DNA from: a virus
Reading direction: 5' to 3' (one strand)
IMG/VR virus record: IMGVR_UViG_3300019124_000103
Coordinates: 1-64,000 of that record
Length of the DNA: 64,000 bases
The notes under the pieces were generated by a model, which ran no database searches, had not been told where the DNA came from, and saw nothing but the letters and a program-made list of their open reading frames with translations. Both the position numbers and the translations under genes were made by a program. Shown here in pieces: positions 9,413-57,468 of the stretch; the stretch's first letter is position 1; each line of letters starts with the position of its first letter.

Positions 9413-9418
9413 CCAGCG

Positions 9419-9434
9419 CTGTACACATGTACAG
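9419..9434. promoter_or_regulatory. LexA-type SOS box before HNH/AP2 gene
   Basis: CTGTACACATGTACAG is a 16-base sequence with 7-base arms in perfect inverted repeat, and it fits CTGT-N8-ACAG exactly. It ends eight bases before the ATG at 9442. LexA boxes of this form are standard in gamma- and betaproteobacteria. The gene downstream should be derepressed during DNA damage. Confidence 0.75.
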
Positions 9435-9441
9435 TGGGACC

Positions 9442-10152
9442 ATGGGCAAGTTTATTGACCTGACCGGTCAGCGTTTCGGAGAGCTCGTCGTCCTGTCACT
9501 TGCGCCCCTCAAGCTCAAGAATCGCCCCGCATGGTTGTGTCGTTGTGATTGCAGCATCGAAAGGGTGGTTCGGGCTGAGGACCTCCGGTCAGGAATGGCA
9601 AAGTCCTGCGGAAAGCACAAGACGGCTGTTGCCCGTGAAATAGCTTCTCAGTCGGCAAAGAGACTCCGGCTATATCAGGACCACGGTACAAGATCCAGGC
9701 TCTACACCATCTGGCGGGCCATGAAATGGCGCTGCCACGACCCCGCCCACAGCGCGTGGGCGCGCTACGGCGGGGCCGGGGTAAAGGTGTGCGCGGAGTG
9801 GCTGGTTTTTCAGCGCTTCCGTAGTTGGGCACTCTCCAGCGGGTATGAAGAGAGCCTATCGCTGGACAGAATCGACTCTGCAGGCGACTACGAGCCGGGC
9901 AACTGTAGGTGGGCCACCTCCATTGAGCAGGCGCGGAACAAGCGATCCGGAGTGCGCCCAATCACCGCGTTCGGGGAGACAAAGCTCGCTGTTGAATGGG
10001 CACAAGACCCCCGCTGCCGGACGACATACAGCACCCTGGTACAACGCATAGCGGCCGGCCACCCGCCTGAGCGGGCCATGACAGCAAGCGAGTTCGAGCT
10101 TAGGTCTCTTGCGCACAAAGGCAGGCCAAAGCCGAGGAAGAGCCAGACGTAG
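9442..10152 (+). CDS. HNH/AP2-type homing-like endonuclease
   Basis: This 236-residue protein has an N-terminal zinc-binding part (GELVVLS...WLCRCDCS...SCGKH). Its HNH-type core, at about residues 85-165, reads YTIWRAMKWRCHDP, YGGAGVKVCAEW, LSLDRIDSAGDYEPGNCRW and EQARNKR. This is the usual layout of phage HNH/AP2 proteins related to homing endonucleases. The ATG at 9442 is chosen because the earlier one at 9427 lies inside the LexA-type box. An intrinsic terminator follows directly. No homologue is present at the same place in P2. Confidence 0.75.
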   Translation: MGKFIDLTGQRFGELVVLSLAPLKLKNRPAWLCRCDCSIERVVRAEDLRSGMAKSCGKHKTAVAREIASQSAKRLRLYQDHGTRSRLYTIWRAMKWRCHDPAHSAWARYGGAGVKVCAEWLVFQRFRSWALSSGYEESLSLDRIDSAGDYEPGNCRWATSIEQARNKRSGVRPITAFGETKLAVEWAQDPRCRTTYSTLVQRIAAGHPPERAMTASEFELRSLAHKGRPKPRKSQT

Positions 10153-10175
10153 GCCCGCCCCGAGCGGGCTTTTTC
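10153..10175 (+). terminator. Intrinsic terminator after HNH/AP2 gene
   Basis: The stem GCCCGC/GCGGGC (10153-10158 with 10164-10169) has a five-base loop and is followed by a T run. It separates the HNH/AP2 transcript from the SOS-box gene downstream. Confidence 0.85.
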
Positions 10176-10280
10176 ACGCCTGCCGGCGGGCGTTACGCGG
10201 CTGTGACGCGGCCAACGCCGGGGGAGTGCGCTATTCCCACCCCCTAGCTCGTGGGATGAGCCACCCACCCGCTATGCTGT

Positions 10281-10296
10281 CTGGATACAAAAACAG
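10281..10296. promoter_or_regulatory. LexA-type SOS box before STAS-like gene (P1)
   Basis: CTGGATACAAAAACAG fits CTG-N10-CAG, with ten bases between it and the ATG at 10307. The equivalent P2 gene has a clearer box at 52278-52293. Conservation of the box before both homologous genes strengthens the call. Confidence 0.7.
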
Positions 10297-10306
10297 TGAG
10301 CGGGCG

Positions 10307-10738
10307 ATGGACGACGTACTTTGCCGGTGGCGTGGCGGAATGCTGTTGGTGCAGACAACAGGCTTGTTCGGCTTTGACGCGGCCGAACGCCTCTACGAAC
10401 GCGTTCGCCGCGAGACTGAGCGCAGAAGTGCGGTAAAGGTCTTGATCGATCTGCGCCGCGCCGTCCTATTGTTCGGTCCGGAGGACGGGGGCGAGCTAGC
10501 GCGGCTGGAGCCAGCTCTTGATGTTGCCATCGGCTTCTTGATCGATCCAGCTCACAAGTCGGTCATGGACCGATATCTAGAGCAAAGCGTGAACAGCGGG
10601 CGCACGCGCCTTGTCTTCACACGGCTTTCGCGTCAGTTGGAGTGCTGGATTGGGGGCGCGTTGCCGGAGGTGCGTCCTCTTCCTCGGTTTGAACCGGCTG
10701 CCCCTCGGCCTCCCGGTACGCCAAGCGCGTGCACATAG
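10307..10738 (+). CDS. STAS-like protein, candidate SOS-controlled antirepressor (P1)
   Basis: This 143-residue protein is homologous to the P2 protein at 52313-52750. It shares RGGMLLVQ...GF, VKVLIDLRRAVLLFG and SGRTRLVF. The alternation of a short strand, helix and VLIDLR strand suggests a STAS/SpoIIAA-like fold, which usually mediates protein-protein binding. A LexA-type box lies just upstream. Its 3' end overlaps the convergent repressor gene by 122 bases. I infer a LexA-controlled antirepressor, because the repressor has no self-cleavage domain. A general stress or exclusion role is the alternative. Confidence 0.65.
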   Translation: MDDVLCRWRGGMLLVQTTGLFGFDAAERLYERVRRETERRSAVKVLIDLRRAVLLFGPEDGGELARLEPALDVAIGFLIDPAHKSVMDRYLEQSVNSGRTRLVFTRLSRQLECWIGGALPEVRPLPRFEPAAPRPPGTPSACT

Positions 10739-11075
10739 AGATCGCAAGGTTGCGCTCCCTCTCGTCCTCGATTGCCGCAAGCCCGCGCGCAATGTCCATG
10801 ATCGCTGCGGGTATCTGAGCGTACTCCTGCGCCGGGTGCAGGAGCTGCCACGTCTCCACACCGCACGCCGCCGCAAGTTCCTCCAGGAAGTCGAGTCGGG
10901 GCGCGTGTAACCCCTTCGTTGCCCTCTCGACGGCCTTCACATCCAGCTTCTTGCTCGTCGCCCAGGCGTGACGAGACATCCCCGATCTTCTGATGATCGC
11001 GGATAGGTTCTGCGCAAGGACTGTCCGGGCGAGTTTGTCCACAAGTGGATTATTCCCGACCACGCAGGTCAACAT
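10617..11075 (-). CDS. Prophage repressor without S24 peptidase domain (P1)
   Basis: This is an XRE-type helix-turn-helix protein (LSAIIRRSGMSRHAWA, then LEELAAACGVETWQLLHP) with a short helical C-terminus (IMDIARGLAAIEDERERNLAIS) shared with the P2 repressor. There is no S24/LexA-like Ser-Lys peptidase domain, so RecA-stimulated self-cleavage is unlikely. The start is uncertain. The frame opens at 11117 inside an operator; ATG 11075 and GTG 11063 or 11042 are possible, and none has a good ribosome-binding site. Confidence 0.75.
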   Translation of the reverse strand: MLTCVVGNNPLVDKLARTVLAQNLSAIIRRSGMSRHAWATSKKLDVKAVERATKGLHAPRLDFLEELAAACGVETWQLLHPAQEYAQIPAAIMDIARGLAAIEDERERNLAISMCTRLAYREAEGQPVQTEEEDAPPATRPQSSTPTDAKAV

Positions 11076-11125
11076 TGTCCAAGTAGAGCTAGGCAACATG
11101 GCGGTTTTGTCGGACACTAATGTCC
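11067..11125. promoter_or_regulatory. P1 right operator sites
   Basis: GGTCAACATTGTCC (11067-11080) and GGACACTAATGTCC (11112-11125) resemble the left operator repeats, with centres 45 bases apart. The first overlaps the likely repressor start and the second abuts the Cro-like start. This is the expected geometry for mutual control by repressor and Cro. A clear promoter hexamer pair is not obvious here. Confidence 0.7.
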
Positions 11126-11422
11126 ATGAAACTGCTGGACGACCTTATCCAACGACTCGCGGGCGCTGAGAGCCTGGAGGCGGTCGCTCGGGAAGCGCAG
11201 GTGTCCGAGCGGACTTTGCGGCGCATCCGGGACCGTGAAAACAGCCCGCGGCTTGAAACCGTCCAAAAAGTTCTTGCCGCCCTCGACAAGGTGGGGCGAG
11301 CAAGAAGGGCAAAGCCGGCCGCCGAGCGCCGCGAAATCCCCGAGGTTGGCGCCGAAGCGCGTCATACGGCCCTCGGTGACGTGGTAATCGACCGGCGCTC
11401 CAAGCGCGACGGCCCCCGCTGA
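11126..11422 (+). CDS. Cro-like helix-turn-helix protein (P1)
   Basis: This 98-residue protein has a helix-turn-helix (LEAVAREAQVSERTLRRIRD) and a basic C-terminus. It lies divergent from the repressor, directly after an operator, so it is the natural Cro counterpart. An ATG at 11120 lies within the operator, and I prefer the one at 11126. Neither has a ribosome-binding site, so the message may be leaderless. P2 has a YdaS-type protein here instead. Confidence 0.65.
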   Translation: MKLLDDLIQRLAGAESLEAVAREAQVSERTLRRIRDRENSPRLETVQKVLAALDKVGRARRAKPAAERREIPEVGAEARHTALGDVVIDRRSKRDGPR

Positions 11423-11834: not shown

Positions 11835-12173
11835 ATGCGCCAAATGATCCCCGCAACCGTCCCGCAACGCGAGGCAACCACACGAAGTGTCTCGACAGAG
11901 ACGCACTTTGCGGAGCCCGTCTTGGTGGATCGGTCCTCATTTGAGGGCGCCATGCGCTACGCCGTCCAACGCTGCGAGCTGGATCAATACGAGATCGCCG
12001 ACGAAATGGGCTGCTCTCACGGGCAAATGTCCAAGGTGATGAAGGGCACGGGCGGTTTCTATGGACATCGCTTTGTCGAGTTCATGAAGACCACCAAAAG
12101 CCTCGCGCCCCTGCAGTGGTACGCCGCTCAGATGGGTTGCGTCGTGGTCCCTAGGCAAATGTTGGGCCAATGA
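11835..12173 (+). CDS. CII-like helix-turn-helix regulator (P1)
   Basis: This 112-residue protein has a helix-turn-helix at about residues 50-75 (LDQYEIADEMGCSHGQMSKV) in the manner of lambda CII or P22 C1. It lies upstream of the replication genes as CII does. AAGGAG precedes the ATG. The P2 protein at 54333-54704 has the same layout but a distinct sequence. It may activate repressor establishment, though this is positional inference. Confidence 0.65.
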   Translation: MRQMIPATVPQREATTRSVSTETHFAEPVLVDRSSFEGAMRYAVQRCELDQYEIADEMGCSHGQMSKVMKGTGGFYGHRFVEFMKTTKSLAPLQWYAAQMGCVVVPRQMLGQ

Positions 12174-12349
12174 GTCGCGCGCCGGGTAGGGAGGAAAGCT
12201 GTGATGGAAAACAGAGATTCGACACACAAGCGCTTGCCCGGCGCATGGCTGAACGGCTCAACCGCAAAGGTGGACGTGTTCACGTTTACCGCTGCGTGCT
12301 TTGCGCTGGCTTTCATTTGGGCAGCGTCGGAAAGGTGAGGAAACCATGA
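12170..12349 (+). CDS. Small zinc-motif phage protein
   Basis: This 59-residue protein starts MSRAPGREESCDGKQRF and ends with a VYRCVLCAGFHLGS motif, a common pattern in tiny phage proteins that look like half zinc fingers. It overlaps both neighbours by four bases (ATGA). From about 12182 the DNA is almost identical to P2 at 54713 onward. Confidence 0.65.
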   Translation: MSRAPGREESCDGKQRFDTQALARRMAERLNRKGGRVHVYRCVLCAGFHLGSVGKVRKP

Positions 12350-12753
12350 GCGTCTGGCGCCCGATCCTCACCAACTTGCACGAGCTGGGCCGCCCGGCCC
12401 CTCTGCGGGATTGGGACGACTTCCGCTTCTCGGCAACGTCCGTGAAAGCTGCTGTCGAGGATCTGTTGCGCCTCGGCCTGATCCAGCGTGACGGCTTGAT
12501 CGGCAAGCACGTGGTCTACCGCATCACGTCGCTGGGCACTCAGTTCTGCCAGGGCCGCGTGATCGCAGTTCGTGGCCGCAAACACGACCCGCTGTGGAGG
12601 AAGTACCTCAACAGCAACCACAAGACCCGCCAGCGTGCCAAGGCGTTCCAGAGCGGGAACCTGAAGACGCACTTTTGTGCGACGTGGCTGGCTGCGCTGC
12701 CCACAACGTATCCACAGCATTTCCCCGCTGTGTTCTCTTCCGCCCTCGCTTAG
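12346..12753 (+). CDS. Winged-helix phage protein, identical copy in P2
   Basis: This 135-residue protein has a winged-helix pattern (WDDFRFSATSVKAAVEDLLRLGLIQRD, then a YRITSLG wing) and a basic C-terminus. It is probably a small DNA-binding regulator. The P2 copy at 54877-55284 is identical. The start codon overlaps the previous stop, and GAGG lies nearby. Confidence 0.65.
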   Translation: MSVWRPILTNLHELGRPAPLRDWDDFRFSATSVKAAVEDLLRLGLIQRDGLIGKHVVYRITSLGTQFCQGRVIAVRGRKHDPLWRKYLNSNHKTRQRAKAFQSGNLKTHFCATWLAALPTTYPQHFPAVFSSALA

Positions 12754-12770
12754 GCCGGCTGACCATAGCC

Positions 12771-12890
12771 ATGTCTAAGCAAGCCCTCTACGTACTCATG
12801 AAGAACGAGTTCTTGAATCAGAACCCGAACGCGACGCCGGAACAGATCGAGGCGTTCTGTAAAGAACTGGCTAAGGAGTTGGGCCTGTGA
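12771..12890 (+). CDS. 39-residue phage microprotein
   Basis: This tiny protein (MSKQALYVLMKNEFLNQNPN onward) is predicted to be two helices around NATPEQIEAFCKEL. The P2 copy at 55302-55421 differs by one residue. No strong ribosome-binding site is seen. The conserved reading frame and its overlap with the next start argue that it is real; its function is unknown. Confidence 0.6.
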   Translation: MSKQALYVLMKNEFLNQNPNATPEQIEAFCKELAKELGL

Positions 12891-12910
12891 GGGACTACGG
12901 CAATGCCTAA
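12887..12910 (+). pseudogene. Fossil start of the initiator gene
   Basis: GTG AGG GAC TAC GGC encodes MRDYG, the same start as the P2 initiator at 55418, but a stop follows after seven codons. The intact P1 initiator begins again at 13156 with MRDYG, after an HNH gene. This looks like the scar of an HNH insertion that rebuilt the 5' end of its target gene. Confidence 0.65.
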
Positions 12911-13163: not shown

Positions 13164-13926
13164 TTACGGCGCCGTGTCACCGCGCTTTTGGATCGGCGAC
13201 ACAGGGAAGCAGCTTCGCGGCCACCCTGAGGCCCAGGTGCTGGCTCTGTACCTGATGACCAGCCCGCACTCCACGATGACCGGCGTTTTCCATTGTCCGG
13301 TTCTCTACATGGCGCACGAGACGGGGCTTGGAATGGAAGGGGCTCAGAAGGCCCTCCGAAGGCTCTTGGAAGCGGGGTTCTGCGAGTACGACAGCGCCTC
13401 CGAAGAGGTGTTTGTTGTGCGGATGGCTGCGTATCAGGTGGGTGAGTCGTTGAAGCTGAACGACAACCGGGTTTCTGGCCTCAGGCGCGATGTTGAAAAG
13501 ATGGCTTCCGCACCTCTGAAAAAGCGGTTCTTGGAGGTGTACGGCGAGGCGTTCCACTTGGTTGAAAAAGCAGGGGGCTCCGAAGCCCCTTCCAAGCCCC
13601 TCCGAAGCCAGGAACAGGAACAGGAACAGAAACAGGATAAGAAGGCGCCTCGGGCCTTGCCCTCCGCACTCACCGTCGATGACCTCAAGGCCGAAGGCGT
13701 CAGCGAAGAGGCTGCATCCGCCTTCCTGGCGATTCGGAAGCGAAAGAGGGCGCCGCTGTCCCAGCTCGCATGGGCCGGGATCAAGCGCGAAGCCGGGAAG
13801 GCAGGGTGGGGCCTTGATGCCGCTGTGCGGAAGGCTGCCGAACGTGGGTGGCAGTCGTTCGAGGCCGAGTGGGTTCGCAACGAACCTCCAACGGACAGCG
13901 GCAGCCAATGGGCGGGGGCGATATGA
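13156..13926 (+). CDS. O-like replication initiator (P1)
   Basis: This 256-residue protein has a winged-helix N-terminus (LALYLMTSP...TGVFHCP...AQKALRRLLEAGF), a Gln/Glu repeat linker near residue 153 and a conserved C-terminus. The C-terminal 100 residues are nearly identical to P2 (55418-56179) while the N-termini differ. In lambda O the N-terminus binds the origin and the C-terminus loads the helicase, so the two phages probably use different origins with the same helicase. The helicase gene follows two genes on. Confidence 0.75.
   Translation: MRDYGAVSPRFWIGDTGKQLRGHPEAQVLALYLMTSPHSTMTGVFHCPVLYMAHETGLGMEGAQKALRRLLEAGFCEYDSASEEVFVVRMAAYQVGESLKLNDNRVSGLRRDVEKMASAPLKKRFLEVYGEAFHLVEKAGGSEAPSKPLRSQEQEQEQKQDKKAPRALPSALTVDDLKAEGVSEEAASAFLAIRKRKRAPLSQLAWAGIKREAGKAGWGLDAAVRKAAERGWQSFEAEWVRNEPPTDSGSQWAGAI
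13608..13640 (+). repeat. Short tandem repeat in initiator gene
   Basis: Hexamer repeats of the form CAGGAA, drifting to CAGAAA and CAGGAT, encode a QEQEQEQKQ linker. The same repeat is in P2 at 55862 onward. It marks the boundary where identity between the two initiators begins, so it is a likely recombination joint. It could also be part of an origin, as the lambda origin lies inside O. Confidence 0.6.
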
Positions 13927-14261
13927 AGGGCCACGAACCGCTTTTCGCCATGCGCCTGCAGGGCTGGGCTCCCAAGGACGTTCACATCGACACCAGCCCG
14001 TCGAAGCTCTGGCGCGAATGGCAGGTGTGGAGCCCGGACCACGCACACCTCGTCGTGGAGCCGTCCGATTCGGTTCGCCTGCTTGACCTTCGCTGCGTTG
14101 TCGGCCTGCTGGTCTTCGTCAACGGCACCAGCCATGAGCGAGTGGCCGAGGTGATCGAGGCGGCGAAGAAGGCCGGCGCTCGCCGGGTGGTCGGGTTCGT
14201 CCATCCCGGACGACTCCCCGAGGAAATCCAGATTCTCGACACCGAAGGGGCGCTGCAATGA
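13923..14261 (+). CDS. Conserved protein of replication block
   Basis: Function unknown; 112 residues, MKGHEPLFAMRLQGW onward, with a VRLLDLRCVVGLLVFVNG strand-helix and a VVGFVHPGRL strand. That suggests an alpha/beta fold. It lies between initiator and helicase, where lambda-like phages often place a loader, but no loader motif is visible. Near-identical copy at 56176-56514. Confidence 0.6.
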   Translation: MKGHEPLFAMRLQGWAPKDVHIDTSPSKLWREWQVWSPDHAHLVVEPSDSVRLLDLRCVVGLLVFVNGTSHERVAEVIEAAKKAGARRVVGFVHPGRLPEEIQILDTEGALQ

Positions 14262-15211
14262 ACATCATCACCCCGGACACCATCGATTTCTCGCTGTACC
14301 TGCGAGAGACGGAAGCGGCCCAGAAGGTGCGCGCGGCGAGCGATTACGTTCAAGACCTGATCGCATCCCTCGGGAAGAAGCGCCAGGAGCCGCGTTCTTA
14401 CCTGCCGTGGGACAAGACCCACAAGCTGTTCCAGCTCCGACCGGGAGAAGTGACCTTGTGGGCGGGCGTCAACGGCCACGGCAAGAGTTTGGTGACGGGT
14501 CAGGTGGCAGCGAGCCTTGTGACCCAATCCGAGCGGGTCTGCATCGCCAGCTTCGAGATGAAGCCTAAGAAGACCCTGGAGCGGATGGTGCGCCAGTGGG
14601 GCGGCGATGCCCCTGAGGAGGAATGGGACGGCGCAGACCTGTCGGGTTACCGGGACGTTTACGAGCAGTTCGGCGCCTGGACGACAGACAAGCTCTGGCT
14701 CTATGACCAACAGGGCACGGTCAACACCGACACGGTGATCGCCGTCATCCGCTACTGCGCGAAAGAACTCGGCATCAAGCATTTCTTCCTCGATAGCTTG
14801 ATGAAGTGCGTGAAGGGCGAGGACGACTACAACGGGCAGAAAGCCCTGGTCGATGAGCTGACCGCCATCGCTCGGGACTACGCGATGCACGTCCATCTGA
14901 TCCATCACCTGCGGAAGCTGGAGACGGAAGGAAAGATGCCCGACAAGTCCGACATCAAGGGCACCGGGGCCATCACCGATCAGGTGGACAACGTGATGTT
15001 GGTGTGGCGGAACAAGCAAAAAGAGCTTGAGCTTCAAAAGCCCAACAACAAGGTGCAGGACACAGAGCCCGACGCGGCGCTTCTGTGCCGGAAACAGCGC
15101 AACGGCGAGTGGGAAGGGACCGTGCAACTGTGGTTCCACAAGGACTCCCAGCAGTTCGTGGAGAGCCCGCACGCCGATTCAATGACCCTCTACAACTGGC
15201 CGCACCGATGA
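14258..15211 (+). CDS. DnaB-like replicative helicase
   Basis: This 317-residue RecA-fold ATPase has Walker A GVNGHGKS (about residue 75), Walker B HFFLDSL (about residue 178) and the DnaB-type SFEMKPKKTLERM and IHHLRK segments. It lacks the DnaB N-terminal domain, like many compact phage helicases and the Twinkle/T7 gp4 C-terminal module. It would unwind the phage fork. The P2 copy (56511-57464) is about 98 percent identical. Confidence 0.88.
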   Translation: MNIITPDTIDFSLYLRETEAAQKVRAASDYVQDLIASLGKKRQEPRSYLPWDKTHKLFQLRPGEVTLWAGVNGHGKSLVTGQVAASLVTQSERVCIASFEMKPKKTLERMVRQWGGDAPEEEWDGADLSGYRDVYEQFGAWTTDKLWLYDQQGTVNTDTVIAVIRYCAKELGIKHFFLDSLMKCVKGEDDYNGQKALVDELTAIARDYAMHVHLIHHLRKLETEGKMPDKSDIKGTGAITDQVDNVMLVWRNKQKELELQKPNNKVQDTEPDAALLCRKQRNGEWEGTVQLWFHKDSQQFVESPHADSMTLYNWPHR

Positions 15212-15564
15212 GCCGCCGAATCCGCATCCTCGCCTTGCTGAAAGAGCACGGCCCGATGACCGCCCGAGAGATCGCCGAGGAACTGGACATTCCCGATGTG
15301 TGCGCCGTCCGCGCGGCGCTGGCCTACATACCCGGGGGTGGCCCGAAGGACTATCACATCGCCGGGTATCGGAGGGACAACGATGGCGGACGCTTGTACC
15401 CCCGCGCGCTCTACGCTGCCGGGCCTGGTGAGGATGCGAAGAAGCTCAAGCCCCTTAGCAGTGCCGAGTGTCAGCGGCGGTGGAAAAAAGTCCGAGTCCA
15501 CAAGGCCGCCTCGGTGTTTGAGTTCGCGGCCAAGGTGCAGAAGTACCACGGAGACAGAGCATGA
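15208..15564 (+). CDS. Winged-helix phage protein
   Basis: This 118-residue protein begins with a winged-helix (MSRRIRILALLKEHGPMTAREIAEELDI is the relevant region, residues 1-28) and has a C-terminal helix. P2 has a different, larger winged-helix protein at the matching place (57469-58212). It overlaps the helicase stop by four bases. The target is unknown. Confidence 0.6.
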   Translation: MSRRIRILALLKEHGPMTAREIAEELDIPDVCAVRAALAYIPGGGPKDYHIAGYRRDNDGGRLYPRALYAAGPGEDAKKLKPLSSAECQRRWKKVRVHKAASVFEFAAKVQKYHGDRA

Positions 15565-52145: not shown

Positions 52146-52277
52146 ATCGTTACGACCGCTCACGAATTGGGGCGCTTTCACCCCTTAATCTTGGGGTTGA
52201 CGCCTCGGACCTAGTACACGATTGGGCGTCGATAGAAGACTCGCCCGGCCCTGTGGCTCACGCGGTGAGCTAGCGTA

Positions 52278-52293
52278 CTGGATACATTTACAG
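52278..52293. promoter_or_regulatory. LexA-type SOS box before STAS-like gene (P2)
   Basis: CTGGATACATTTACAG fits CTG-N10-CAG, and the flanks extend the symmetry to TACTG...CAGTA over 20 bases. It lies 19 bases before ATG 52313. The rest of the gap from 52146 holds a CCCC/GGGG hairpin near 52180 and no gene. Confidence 0.75.
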
Positions 52294-52312
52294 TACAACA
52301 AAGTGAGTGGGC

Positions 52313-52750
52313 ATGAGCGGTATGGACGAGTTTGAAATCACCCGGCGCGGCGGGATGCTCATCGTGCAGGTGGGCGGCTTCTTTACGGTGGAGAAGGCCG
52401 ATGAACTTCGGCAGCGCATCCTGGCGGACCTTCGGCAGGCCAACGCTGTGAAGTGCCTCATTGATCTGCGGCGGTGCGTCTTGGTCATGGGCGAGGCCCA
52501 AATCGACCAGATGGCGGAAGCCGAGCTGGCGAGCGGGCTGGAGGTGGCGACTGGTGTTCTTGCCAGCGAACCGCAGCGGGAGCTGGTCAAGCGCTACGCA
52601 AAGCGCATGGGCGCGACCGGCAGAACCCGCCTGGTCTTCACCGATGCTTCGCGGTCTTTGTGGGAGTGGCTGGGGGGAGTGGTTCCGGAGCTTCTTCCTG
52701 CTCGACAGTTCGAAGTCGGTGCTCGTCCTCAATCTCAAAAGCAACACTAG
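52313..52750 (+). CDS. STAS-like protein, candidate SOS-controlled antirepressor (P2)
   Basis: This 145-residue protein shares with P1 10307-10738 the segments RRGGMLIVQVGGFFTVEKAD, VKCLIDLRRCVLVMG and TGRTRLVF. The strand-helix-strand order with a VKCLIDLR strand suggests a STAS/SpoIIAA-like fold. It has a LexA-type box upstream and overlaps the convergent repressor gene by 113 bases. The conserved pairing in two different immunity regions favours a role on the repressor. The ATG at 52322 is an alternative start. Confidence 0.65.
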   Translation: MSGMDEFEITRRGGMLIVQVGGFFTVEKADELRQRILADLRQANAVKCLIDLRRCVLVMGEAQIDQMAEAELASGLEVATGVLASEPQRELVKRYAKRMGATGRTRLVFTDASRSLWEWLGGVVPELLPARQFEVGARPQSQKQH

Positions 52751-54332: not shown

Positions 54333-54704
54333 ATGCGAGACATCGTGACCTCAACTTCGCGTCAACGCGAGGAATGCGCAGAGAAGCCGCGGAAACCGCT
54401 GCACTACATGCACCCCGACGACCTGCGTTATTCAGCGCTTCAGGACTGCATTGCAGAGGCGATTTTGCATTCGCGCTTCACGCAGCAGGCCCTGGCCCGA
54501 CGCATAGGTGTGAGCGAGTCCCATCTGTCGAAGGTCATCAACGGCCAAGCCGGTTTGCACGGCGAGGCGCTGGTGGCGTTCTGCAAAGAGACGCGCTCGG
54601 TTGCCTTGTGGCAGTGGTACTCAATGCGGATATCCGAAGCATTGCAAGCCGAGGGCGTGCAGTTCCCGCCGCTGATGGCGGCTGCTTCCCCTCGTTTGCA
54701 ATGA
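54333..54704 (+). CDS. CII-like helix-turn-helix regulator (P2)
   Basis: This 123-residue protein has a helix-turn-helix (FTQQALARRIGVSESHLSKV) at about residues 55-75, in the place of the P1 regulator at 11835-12173. GGAG precedes ATG 54333. Function inferred from place. Confidence 0.65.
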   Translation: MRDIVTSTSRQREECAEKPRKPLHYMHPDDLRYSALQDCIAEAILHSRFTQQALARRIGVSESHLSKVINGQAGLHGEALVAFCKETRSVALWQWYSMRISEALQAEGVQFPPLMAAASPRLQ

Positions 54705-54880
54705 GCCGCACGCCGGGTAGGGAGGAAAGCTGTGATGGAAAACAGAGATTCGACACACAAGCGCTTGCCCGGCGCATGGCTGAACGGCTCAACCGCAAAG
54801 GTGGACGTGTTCACGTTTACCGCTGCGTGCTTTGCGCTGGCTTTCATTTGGGCAGCGTCGGAAAGGTGAGGAAACCATGA
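54701..54880 (+). CDS. Small zinc-motif phage protein (P2 copy)
   Basis: This 59-residue copy of P1 12170-12349 differs only near its N-terminus. From 54713 onward the DNA is almost the same as in P1. ATGA overlaps with both neighbours. Confidence 0.65.
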   Translation: MSRTPGREESCDGKQRFDTQALARRMAERLNRKGGRVHVYRCVLCAGFHLGSVGKVRKP

Positions 54881-55284
54881 GCGTCTGGCGCCCGATCCTC
54901 ACCAACTTGCACGAGCTGGGCCGCCCGGCCCCTCTGCGGGATTGGGACGACTTCCGCTTCTCGGCAACGTCCGTGAAAGCTGCTGTCGAGGATCTGTTGC
55001 GCCTCGGCCTGATCCAGCGTGACGGCTTGATCGGCAAGCACGTGGTCTACCGCATCACGTCGCTGGGCACTCAGTTCTGCCAGGGCCGCGTGATCGCAGT
55101 TCGTGGCCGCAAACACGACCCGCTGTGGAGGAAGTACCTCAACAGCAACCACAAGACCCGCCAGCGTGCCAAGGCGTTCCAGAGCGGGAACCTGAAGACG
55201 CACTTTTGTGCGACGTGGCTGGCTGCGCTGCCCACAACGTATCCACAGCATTTCCCCGCTGTGTTCTCTTCCGCCCTCGCTTAG
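54877..55284 (+). CDS. Winged-helix phage protein (P2 copy)
   Basis: This is identical in protein sequence to P1 12346-12753: a winged helix followed by a basic C-terminus. Probably a DNA-binding regulator of early genes. Confidence 0.65.
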   Translation: MSVWRPILTNLHELGRPAPLRDWDDFRFSATSVKAAVEDLLRLGLIQRDGLIGKHVVYRITSLGTQFCQGRVIAVRGRKHDPLWRKYLNSNHKTRQRAKAFQSGNLKTHFCATWLAALPTTYPQHFPAVFSSALA

Positions 55285-55301
55285 GCCGGCTGACCATAGC
55301 C

Positions 55302-55421
55302 ATGTCTAAGCAAGCCCTCTACGTACTCATGAAGAACGAGTTCTTGAATCAGAACCCGAACGCGACGCCGGAACAGATCGAGTCGTTCTGTAAAGAACTG
55401 GCTAAGGAGTTGGGTCTGTGA
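55302..55421 (+). CDS. 39-residue phage microprotein (P2 copy)
   Basis: Same peptide as P1 12771-12890 with one Ala to Ser change. Its end overlaps the initiator GTG by four bases, so it is translationally coupled to replication. Function unknown. Confidence 0.6.
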   Translation: MSKQALYVLMKNEFLNQNPNATPEQIESFCKELAKELGL

Positions 55422-56179
55422 GGGACTACGGCAAGGTTCATTCCCAGTTTTGGGCCAGCTCCACCATCGCCGCATTGAGCGATGACGGCAAGTTGTTGGC
55501 GCTCTATCTCATGACCTGCCAGCACAACACGATTGCTGGCGTCTTCCGTCTTCCTGATGGCTATGCCGCCGAGGATCTTGGCTGGTCGCCTGAAAGGGTT
55601 CGGGAAGGGTTTGCGGAACTGTCACGGAACGGTTTCGCTAACCGTTGCGAAACGACGAAATGGGTCTGGATCATCAAGCATCTGGACTGGAATCCGCCAG
55701 AGAACCCGAACCAGCGCAAGGCGGCCTTGAAGTGCTCCAGCCAAGTCCCCGAAAACTGTGATTGGAGGGCTCGTTTCCTAGGTGAGGCGACCCAAAAGCT
55801 GATCGACAGCGACTCCGCCGCGGCGAACCCTTCCGCAACCCTTCCGAAACCCTTGCCTAACCAGGAACAGGAACAGGAACAGAAACAGGATAAGAAGGCG
55901 CCTCGGGCTTTGCCCTCCGCACTCACCGTCGATGACCTCAAGGCCGAAGGCGTCAGCGAAGAGGCTGCATACGCCTTCCTGGCGATTCGGAAGCGAAAGA
56001 GGGCGCCGCTGTCCCAGCTCGCATGGGCGGGGATCAAGCGCGAAGCCGGAAAGGCAGGGTGGGGCCTTGATGCCGCTGTGCGGAAGGCAGCCGAGCGTGG
56101 GTGGCAATCCTTCGAGGCCGAGTGGGTTCGCAACGAGCCGCCAACGGACGGCGGCAGCAAGTGGGCGGGGGCGATATGA
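55418..56179 (+). CDS. O-like replication initiator (P2)
   Basis: This 253-residue protein starts at a GTG (MRDYGKVHSQFWASSTIAAL). The N-terminal winged-helix region (LLALYLMTCQHNTIAGVFRL, then GLGW-type helix) differs from P1. After the QEQEQEQKQ linker the C-terminal 100 residues are nearly identical. It shows the uninterrupted form of the gene that is split by the HNH insertion in P1. Confidence 0.75.
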   Translation: MRDYGKVHSQFWASSTIAALSDDGKLLALYLMTCQHNTIAGVFRLPDGYAAEDLGWSPERVREGFAELSRNGFANRCETTKWVWIIKHLDWNPPENPNQRKAALKCSSQVPENCDWRARFLGEATQKLIDSDSAAANPSATLPKPLPNQEQEQEQKQDKKAPRALPSALTVDDLKAEGVSEEAAYAFLAIRKRKRAPLSQLAWAGIKREAGKAGWGLDAAVRKAAERGWQSFEAEWVRNEPPTDGGSKWAGAI

Positions 56180-56514
56180 AGGGCCACGAACCGTTGTTCG
56201 CCATGCGCCTGCAGGGCTGGGCTCCCAAGGACGTTCACATCGACACCAGCCCGTCGAAGCTCTGGCGCGAATGGCAGGTGTGGAGCCCGGATCACGCACA
56301 CCTCGTCGTGGAGCCGTCCGATTCGGTTCGCCTGCTTGACCTTCGCTGCGTTGTCGGCCTGCTGGTCTTCGTCAACGGCAGCAGCCATGAGCGAGTGGCC
56401 GAGGTGATCGAGGCGGCGAAGAAGGCCGGCGCTCGCCGAGTGGTCGGGTTTGTCCATCCCGGACGACTCCCCGAGGAAATCCAGATTCTCGACACCGAAG
56501 GGGCGCTGCAATGA
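56176..56514 (+). CDS. Conserved protein of replication block (P2 copy)
   Basis: This 112-residue copy of P1 13923-14261 has one or two substitutions. It lies between initiator and helicase. Function unknown. Confidence 0.6.
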   Translation: MKGHEPLFAMRLQGWAPKDVHIDTSPSKLWREWQVWSPDHAHLVVEPSDSVRLLDLRCVVGLLVFVNGSSHERVAEVIEAAKKAGARRVVGFVHPGRLPEEIQILDTEGALQ

Positions 56515-57464
56515 ACATCATCACCCCGGACACCATCGATTTCTCGCTGTACCTGCGGGAGACGGAAGCCGCGCAGAAGGTGCGCGCGGCGAGCGATTAC
56601 GTCCAAGACCTGATCGCATCCCTCGGAAAGAAGCGCCAGGAGCCACGCTCATACCTGCCCTGGGACAAGACCCACAAGCTGTTCCAGCTCCGACCAGGAG
56701 AGGTGACCTTGTGGGCGGGCGTCAACGGCCACGGCAAGAGCTTGGTGACGGGCCAGCTAGCAGCAAGCCTCGTGACCCAATCCGAGCGGGTGTGCATCGC
56801 CAGCTTCGAGATGAAGCCGAGGAAGACCCTGGAGCGGATGGTGCGCCAGTGGGGCGGGGATGCCCCTGAGGAGGAATGGGACGGCGCAGACCTGTCGGGT
56901 TACCGGGACGTTTACGAGCAGTTCGGCGCCTGGACGACTGACAAGCTCTGGCTCTATGACCAACAGGGCACGGTCAACACCGACACGGTGATTGCGGTCA
57001 TCCGCTACTGCGCGAAAGAACTCGGCATCAAGCACTTCTTCCTCGATAGCTTGATGAAGTGCGTGAAGGGCGAGGACGACTACAACGGGCAGAAAGCCCT
57101 GGTCGATGAGTTGACCGCCATCGCTCGGGACTACGCGATGCACGTCCATCTGATCCATCACCTGCGGAAGCTGGAGACGGAAGGAAAGATGCCCGACAAG
57201 TCCGACATCAAGGGGACCGGGGCAATCACCGATCAGGTGGACAACGTGATGTTGGTGTGGCGGAACAAGCAGAAAGAGCTTGAGCTTCAAAAGACCAACA
57301 ACAAGGTTCAGGACACGGAGCCCGACGCGGCGCTTCTGTGCCGGAAACAGCGCAACGGCGAGTGGGAAGGGACCGTGCAACTGTGGTTCCACAAGGGCTC
57401 TCAGCAGTTCGTGGAGAGCCCGCACGCCGATTCCATGACCCTCTACAACTGGCCGCACAGGTGA
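56511..57464 (+). CDS. DnaB-like replicative helicase (P2)
   Basis: This 317-residue helicase is about 98 percent identical to P1 14258-15211, with the same Walker A GVNGHGKS and Walker B HFFLDSL. Differences are scattered, mostly silent, so this block is older than the 720-base identical block. Confidence 0.88.
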   Translation: MNIITPDTIDFSLYLRETEAAQKVRAASDYVQDLIASLGKKRQEPRSYLPWDKTHKLFQLRPGEVTLWAGVNGHGKSLVTGQLAASLVTQSERVCIASFEMKPRKTLERMVRQWGGDAPEEEWDGADLSGYRDVYEQFGAWTTDKLWLYDQQGTVNTDTVIAVIRYCAKELGIKHFFLDSLMKCVKGEDDYNGQKALVDELTAIARDYAMHVHLIHHLRKLETEGKMPDKSDIKGTGAITDQVDNVMLVWRNKQKELELQKTNNKVQDTEPDAALLCRKQRNGEWEGTVQLWFHKGSQQFVESPHADSMTLYNWPHR

Positions 57465-57468
57465 GCGC

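Follow-up and report, generated by a model that had tools for sequence, protein, structure and literature searches.

To our knowledge, DNA-damage sensing by prophages with uncleavable repressors is known for a few antirepressors only. LexA-controlled antirepressors form an established class, which includes GfoA and GftA of the Gifsy prophages, Tum of coliphage 186, and AntC of N15 (PMC3121763). Tum, like GfoA and GftA, acts by binding its cognate repressor, which is thereby kept from its operators, and the Gifsy antirepressor gene shares a LexA-regulated operon with a homologue of dinI (PMC3121763). In the CI:Mor systems of TP901-1 and phi13, a small phage protein serves as the antirepressor of a short CI (PMC11149083).

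The window, i.e. the whole stretch of 64,000 nt that was analysed, belongs to an 82.5 kb virus record carrying two related prophages, P1 and P2, in tandem. The P1 locus consisted of the following features.

10247..10261, dyad GCTCG-TGGGA-TGAGC upstream of the STAS gene
10279..10298, LexA (SOS) box of P1, GTCTGGATACAAAAACAGTG (17.9 bits with a Burkholderiales LexA matrix)
10307..10738, + strand, proposed P1 antirepressor, predicted STAS fold, 143 aa (from predicted fold and homologues)
10617..10738, convergent overlap of the STAS and repressor genes, 122 bases
10617..11075, - strand, P1 repressor, 152 aa from ATG, with the ORF open to 11117 (HTH head, helical tail)
10713..10814, - strand, repressor tail common to P2, PAAIMDIARGLAAIEDERERNLAISMCTRLAYR, mainly outside the overlap
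11120..11422, + strand, divergent Cro-like HTH gene beyond the presumed operator region (HTH/repressor matches)

The start codon of the STAS gene lies 8 bases downstream of the LexA box, and the overlap codes for the end of the repressor tail and the tail's low-complexity last residues. A first-pass annotation of this DNA had proposed a LexA-type CTG-N10-CAG box at 10281-10296, and this box (CTGGATACAAAAACAG) is indeed present there, within the site that the betaproteobacterial (Burkholderiales) matrix scored as the third best of the record. The 122-base overlap that it described between the gene of the 143-residue protein and the 3' end of the repressor gene was recovered at 10617-10738. Its description of the repressor as peptidase-less also held, as the protein has an HTH, with weak matches, and a helical tail, and no S24 domain could be detected in the P1 or P2 repressor or anywhere in the record. 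Upstream, an HNH endonuclease gene of P1 (start 9442, within 9417-10152) has its own LexA-type box at 9417-9436 (18.0 bits). With a terminator-like hairpin behind it at about 10153-10175, this gene probably forms an SOS unit of its own.

With the P1 protein as query, the record yielded a second STAS/repressor arrangement at 52276-53087 in P2, where the two genes again stand head-on and overlap by 113 bases.

52256..52270, P2 dyad GCTCA-CGCGG-TGAGC
52276..52295, P2 LexA box, TACTGGATACATTTACAGTA, the top LexA site of the record (27.1 bits)
52322..52750, + strand, P2 STAS-fold protein (predicted), 142 aa, 42-43% identity to that of P1
52638..53087, - strand, P2 repressor, 149 aa, with the ORF open to 53183, a related tail and an HTH head unlike that of P1
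53168..53527, + strand, divergent YdaS/Cro-like gene

Elsewhere in the two prophages, the blocks 12168-12903 / 54699-55434 and 13587-15213 / 55839-57466 share 99.5% and 96% identity amid diverged stretches, which suggests recent exchange between the tandem prophages.

Predicted fold and distribution of the STAS protein

Pfam, PHROGs, and NCBIfam yielded nothing usable for the P1 or P2 STAS proteins, and the same three collections gave no DinI match, so that the DinI-like second half characteristic of the Tum/DinI sequence family was not found. None of the phage members, including P1 and P2, matched PF11964 above its curated cut-off. A first structure model of the P1 protein, made from three phage sequences, reached a pLDDT of 53, too weak alone; SpoIIAA was already its top match. 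With an input of eleven sequences the pLDDT of the AF2 model was 85.6 and the strand/helix order was bbabababa, that of STAS; six of these sequences were host proteins found with the phage profile, mostly clear SpoIIAA-like members, which may have aided the fold prediction. The top Foldseek match of this model was SpoIIAA (1thn_B; E 4e-5, TM 0.68 by target length), and the best matches among solved structures were SpoIIAA, RsbV, and the DUF3478 protein 2q3l. When the phage-only profile was compared with 177,635 PDB sequences, the top two matches were again SpoIIAA, with weak E values of 0.08-0.1. A profile comparison with the SpoIIAA-like family PF11964 gave 96.5% probability (E 8e-10), a partly circular figure, since the first profile had been used to select the second. 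BFVD contained no matching phage protein at E 0.001 or better. Taken from the model and these matches, the 143-residue P1 protein is predicted to adopt the STAS/SpoIIAA fold, in agreement with the STAS-like strand order noted in the first-pass annotation. The phosphorylatable Asp-Ser/Thr motif of the SpoIIAA type is absent after strand 3, where P1 has IDLRRAVLLFGPED and P2 has IDLRRCVLVMGEAQ.

Known occurrences of the STAS fold elsewhere are in anti-sigma antagonists, stressosomes, and transporters. A search of the open-access literature, in which older or subscription reports could be missed, found neither a STAS-fold antirepressor nor a STAS protein acting on a phage repressor. The earlier view that the fold had not been described for antirepressors was thus borne out within that literature, and both the STAS fold and the convergent-overlap layout appear new for LexA-controlled antirepressors.

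Relatives of the protein were sought in a sample of 1,997 genomes or records and three pattern-based collections. Scans of IMG/VR and GTDB contigs with one or two STAS sequences gave no match, nor did tblastn of the STAS protein against INPHARED phages and PLSDB plasmids, and a search with the neighbouring gene (12346-12750) revealed no additional phages. Homologues could be reached only via helicase-related loci and profile searches. In this way six further distinct family genes were found in phages or phage-like loci, namely L178 (= L004), L180, L181, L203, L205, and L206, making eight distinct loci with P1 and P2. L180 has a near-identical copy, L179, and was counted once; an 89 kb IMG/VR record likewise encodes the L205 protein; the remote members L203 and L206 were recognised by weak profile scores and identical context. 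At least five prophages elsewhere are related to P1 and P2 in this arrangement.

All eight phage-type STAS genes run head-on into a repressor-like gene, with an overlap of 90-212 bases, and S24 was undetected by Pfam in the partners at all eight loci. Evidence for an HTH in the partner gene was clear in L180 and weak or absent by Pfam in L178, L205, and L206, whose partners were called repressor-like by position, length, and PHROG or visual resemblance. The STAS genes of L178 and L180 are under purifying selection, with strong constraint (dN/dS 0.13, and 0.11 outside the overlap).

LexA sites of the record and the related loci

The LexA matrix (20 bp) was built from 28 sites in the promoters of lexA and recA from 60 genomes of Burkholderiales, without the P1 and P2 boxes; most of the prophages that carry a related replication helicase came from this group. 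The top three sites in the 82.5 kb record were 52276-52295 (27.1 bits), 9417-9436 (18.0 bits), and 10279-10298 (17.9 bits), followed by a fourth-best site of only 8.55 bits, so that the strong LexA sites of the record were the two STAS-gene boxes and the box before the HNH gene. No site in 30 simulated sequences scored as high as these three. The lexA gene of Ideonella carries CTGGATA-type boxes resembling the three strong sites of the record. A plain search for CTGT-N8-ACAG with up to one mismatch was uninformative (23 matches in the window against 20 expected).

Sites of at least 13.5 bits were rare, only 14 being present across 1.53 Mb of phage and flanking sequence. At this density about 0.007 would be expected in the 100-base stretches that precede the eight STAS genes; three were seen, in P1, P2, and L205. 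The L205 site (19.7 bits) is the best of its locus and lies about 32 bases before the STAS ORF; as L205 was located by protein profile alone, its box was found independently of context. Near the STAS start of the other five (L178, L180, L181, L203, and L206) the matrix recognised no LexA site, and the LexA motifs of their hosts may differ; LexA control is therefore not general in the family. A LexA-like site in L178 and L180 (AACTACATTGAGTTACAGGC, 0.7 bits in L178) was poor at best and is not claimed.

Several other elements were observed. In L181, the motif AAGCATGGTT occurs both close to the divergent promoter of the repressor and ahead of the STAS gene (about 1040-1110 and 1990-2030), and its copies at both sites suggest that the L181 repressor itself controls its proposed antirepressor gene. 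L205 has a perfect dyad, ACGACCG-ATACAA-CGGTCGT, at 1436-1460, after the LexA box and ahead of the STAS start, which could be an operator or an RNA hairpin. A GCTCA-N5-TGAGC dyad lies upstream of the STAS genes in P1 (one mismatch), P2, L178 (4902-4916), and L180 (4903-4917), four loci that differ in their repressor heads; its count in the window was not unusual and it was also present in unrelated loci, so no role as a second operator is claimed. In a related prophage, a 27-bit LexA box (L088 3578-3597, likewise L034 1578-1597) precedes a gene whose product begins MCNRYVSPEE and resembles an SRAP/YedK-type protein.

Repressor tails and the proposed mechanism

Comparison revealed that the P1 and P2 repressors align only in the C-terminal tail (E 6e-8), as do those of L178 and L180 (E 1e-19), and that the DNA-binding heads differ within both pairs. 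The tail matches outlasted removal of the part overlapping the STAS gene (E 3e-4 for P1/P2 and 6e-8 for L178/L180) and thus do not merely mirror the STAS reading frame. Between P1 and L205 the repressor match spans residues 61-136 (E 1e-7), and the tails of L181, L203, and L206 had no significant BLASTP match to other repressors. Between L178 and L180, DNA identity is 0.69-0.84 in the STAS gene and drops to about 0.4-0.6 in the repressor, so the common tail is argued from the protein level only. A kept tail with changing heads would be expected were the tail the part recognised by the STAS protein, with operator specificity free to change.

We consider it likely that P1 and P2 are SOS-inducible prophages in which a LexA-controlled STAS protein binds a non-self-cleaving repressor through its helical tail and frees the lytic genes. 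The P1 and P2 repressors would be unable to cleave themselves, and host LexA would keep the STAS gene silent until DNA damage destroys LexA and the STAS-fold protein is produced. This protein would then bind its partner repressor at the helical C-terminal tail and remove it from the operators, either by blocking its assembly into dimers or oligomers or through a switch of partners, which would release the lytic genes. Computation established the boxes, the predicted fold, the lack of a detectable S24 domain, the conserved convergent overlap, and tails that are alike under unlike heads; that the STAS protein binds the repressor, targets the tail, and induces the prophage we infer. The antirepressor role proposed in the first-pass annotation is thereby supported: its computable predictions (LexA matrix score, STAS fold, repressor without peptidase) all held, and the P2 copy, the six further homologues, the L205 box, and the kept tails point in the same direction. 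Antisense or collision effects of the convergent overlap may come on top. For the family as a whole, the data lean somewhat towards an undescribed group of STAS antirepressors in temperate phages of Burkholderiales and others, in which the STAS gene and the tail form an exchangeable module combined with various heads and the trigger varies between LexA and other promoters.

The overlap could itself be the active element, with a LexA-controlled transcript that reads on through the STAS gene, enters the repressor gene in antisense direction, and lowers repressor synthesis, and the protein being secondary or otherwise employed. This would account for the convergent overlap of 90-212 bases kept in 8/8 loci, and no convincing terminator was seen between the STAS gene and the repressor start. 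However, the protein is under purifying selection outside the overlap too (dN/dS 0.11), which antisense RNA alone would not need, the repressor tails are alike outside the overlap as well, and reduced synthesis alone would clear stable existing repressor only slowly; such a mechanism is therefore regarded as unlikely to be the main one. Co-inheritance of STAS gene and tail would equally be predicted if the protein were a corepressor or reset factor, made after damage to strengthen the repressor via its tail and restore lysogeny. If the protein were a damage-induced stabiliser, however, prophages whose repressors are uncleavable would lack any obvious SOS inducer, and those LexA-controlled partners of repressors that PMC3121763 names act as antirepressors, which makes this role highly improbable.

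Equally improbable is that the gene is unrelated SOS cargo, a STAS/SEC14-like protein with a host target lying beside the repressor by chance. A host origin would be easy, as SpoIIAA-like PF11964 proteins are encoded in Burkholderiales genomes, and P1 does have another SOS-boxed gene nearby, that of the HNH endonuclease; but the convergent overlap with a repressor-like gene, kept by every one of the eight phage-type members, is unexpected of cargo. The antirepressor reading thus remains the preferred one. If true, it would represent a new use of the STAS fold and a way of awakening prophages that has no earlier description for this kind of protein. The recognisable fold, the gene arrangement, and the tail partner would then allow the trigger of such prophages to be predicted from sequence, and the tandem pair P1/P2 makes cross-induction of neighbours directly testable.

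Comparison with known systems

Two bacterial families share the predicted fold. The SpoIIAA-like PF11964 proteins of proteobacteria (DUF3478, STAS/SEC14) provide the structure match 2q3l; unlike them, the phage members have no PF11964 match and are tied to phage repressors. SpoIIAA and RsbV/RsbS of Bacillus are the best structural matches, and the way they set a transcription factor free through protein-protein binding may be a parallel. In contrast to SpoIIAA and RsbV, the proposed partner is a repressor rather than an anti-sigma kinase, and the Asp-Ser/Thr motif is absent. Mor resembles the P1 protein in being a small phage protein paired with a short repressor, with no sequence relation shown here; we know of no STAS relation of Mor.

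The closest resemblance is to Tum, AntC, GfoA, and GftA, each of which is likewise a phage protein behind a LexA box. Tum has 146 residues and the P1 protein 143, and the Gifsy-1/-2 repressor (136 aa) is short, as are those of P1 and P2. Unlike these four, the P1 protein has no similarity to DinI, has a predicted STAS fold, and is encoded head-on to, and overlapping, the repressor gene. The testable features of the class, without the DinI-like part, are found in P1 and P2, which suggests that the STAS protein works like Tum and is unrelated to it.
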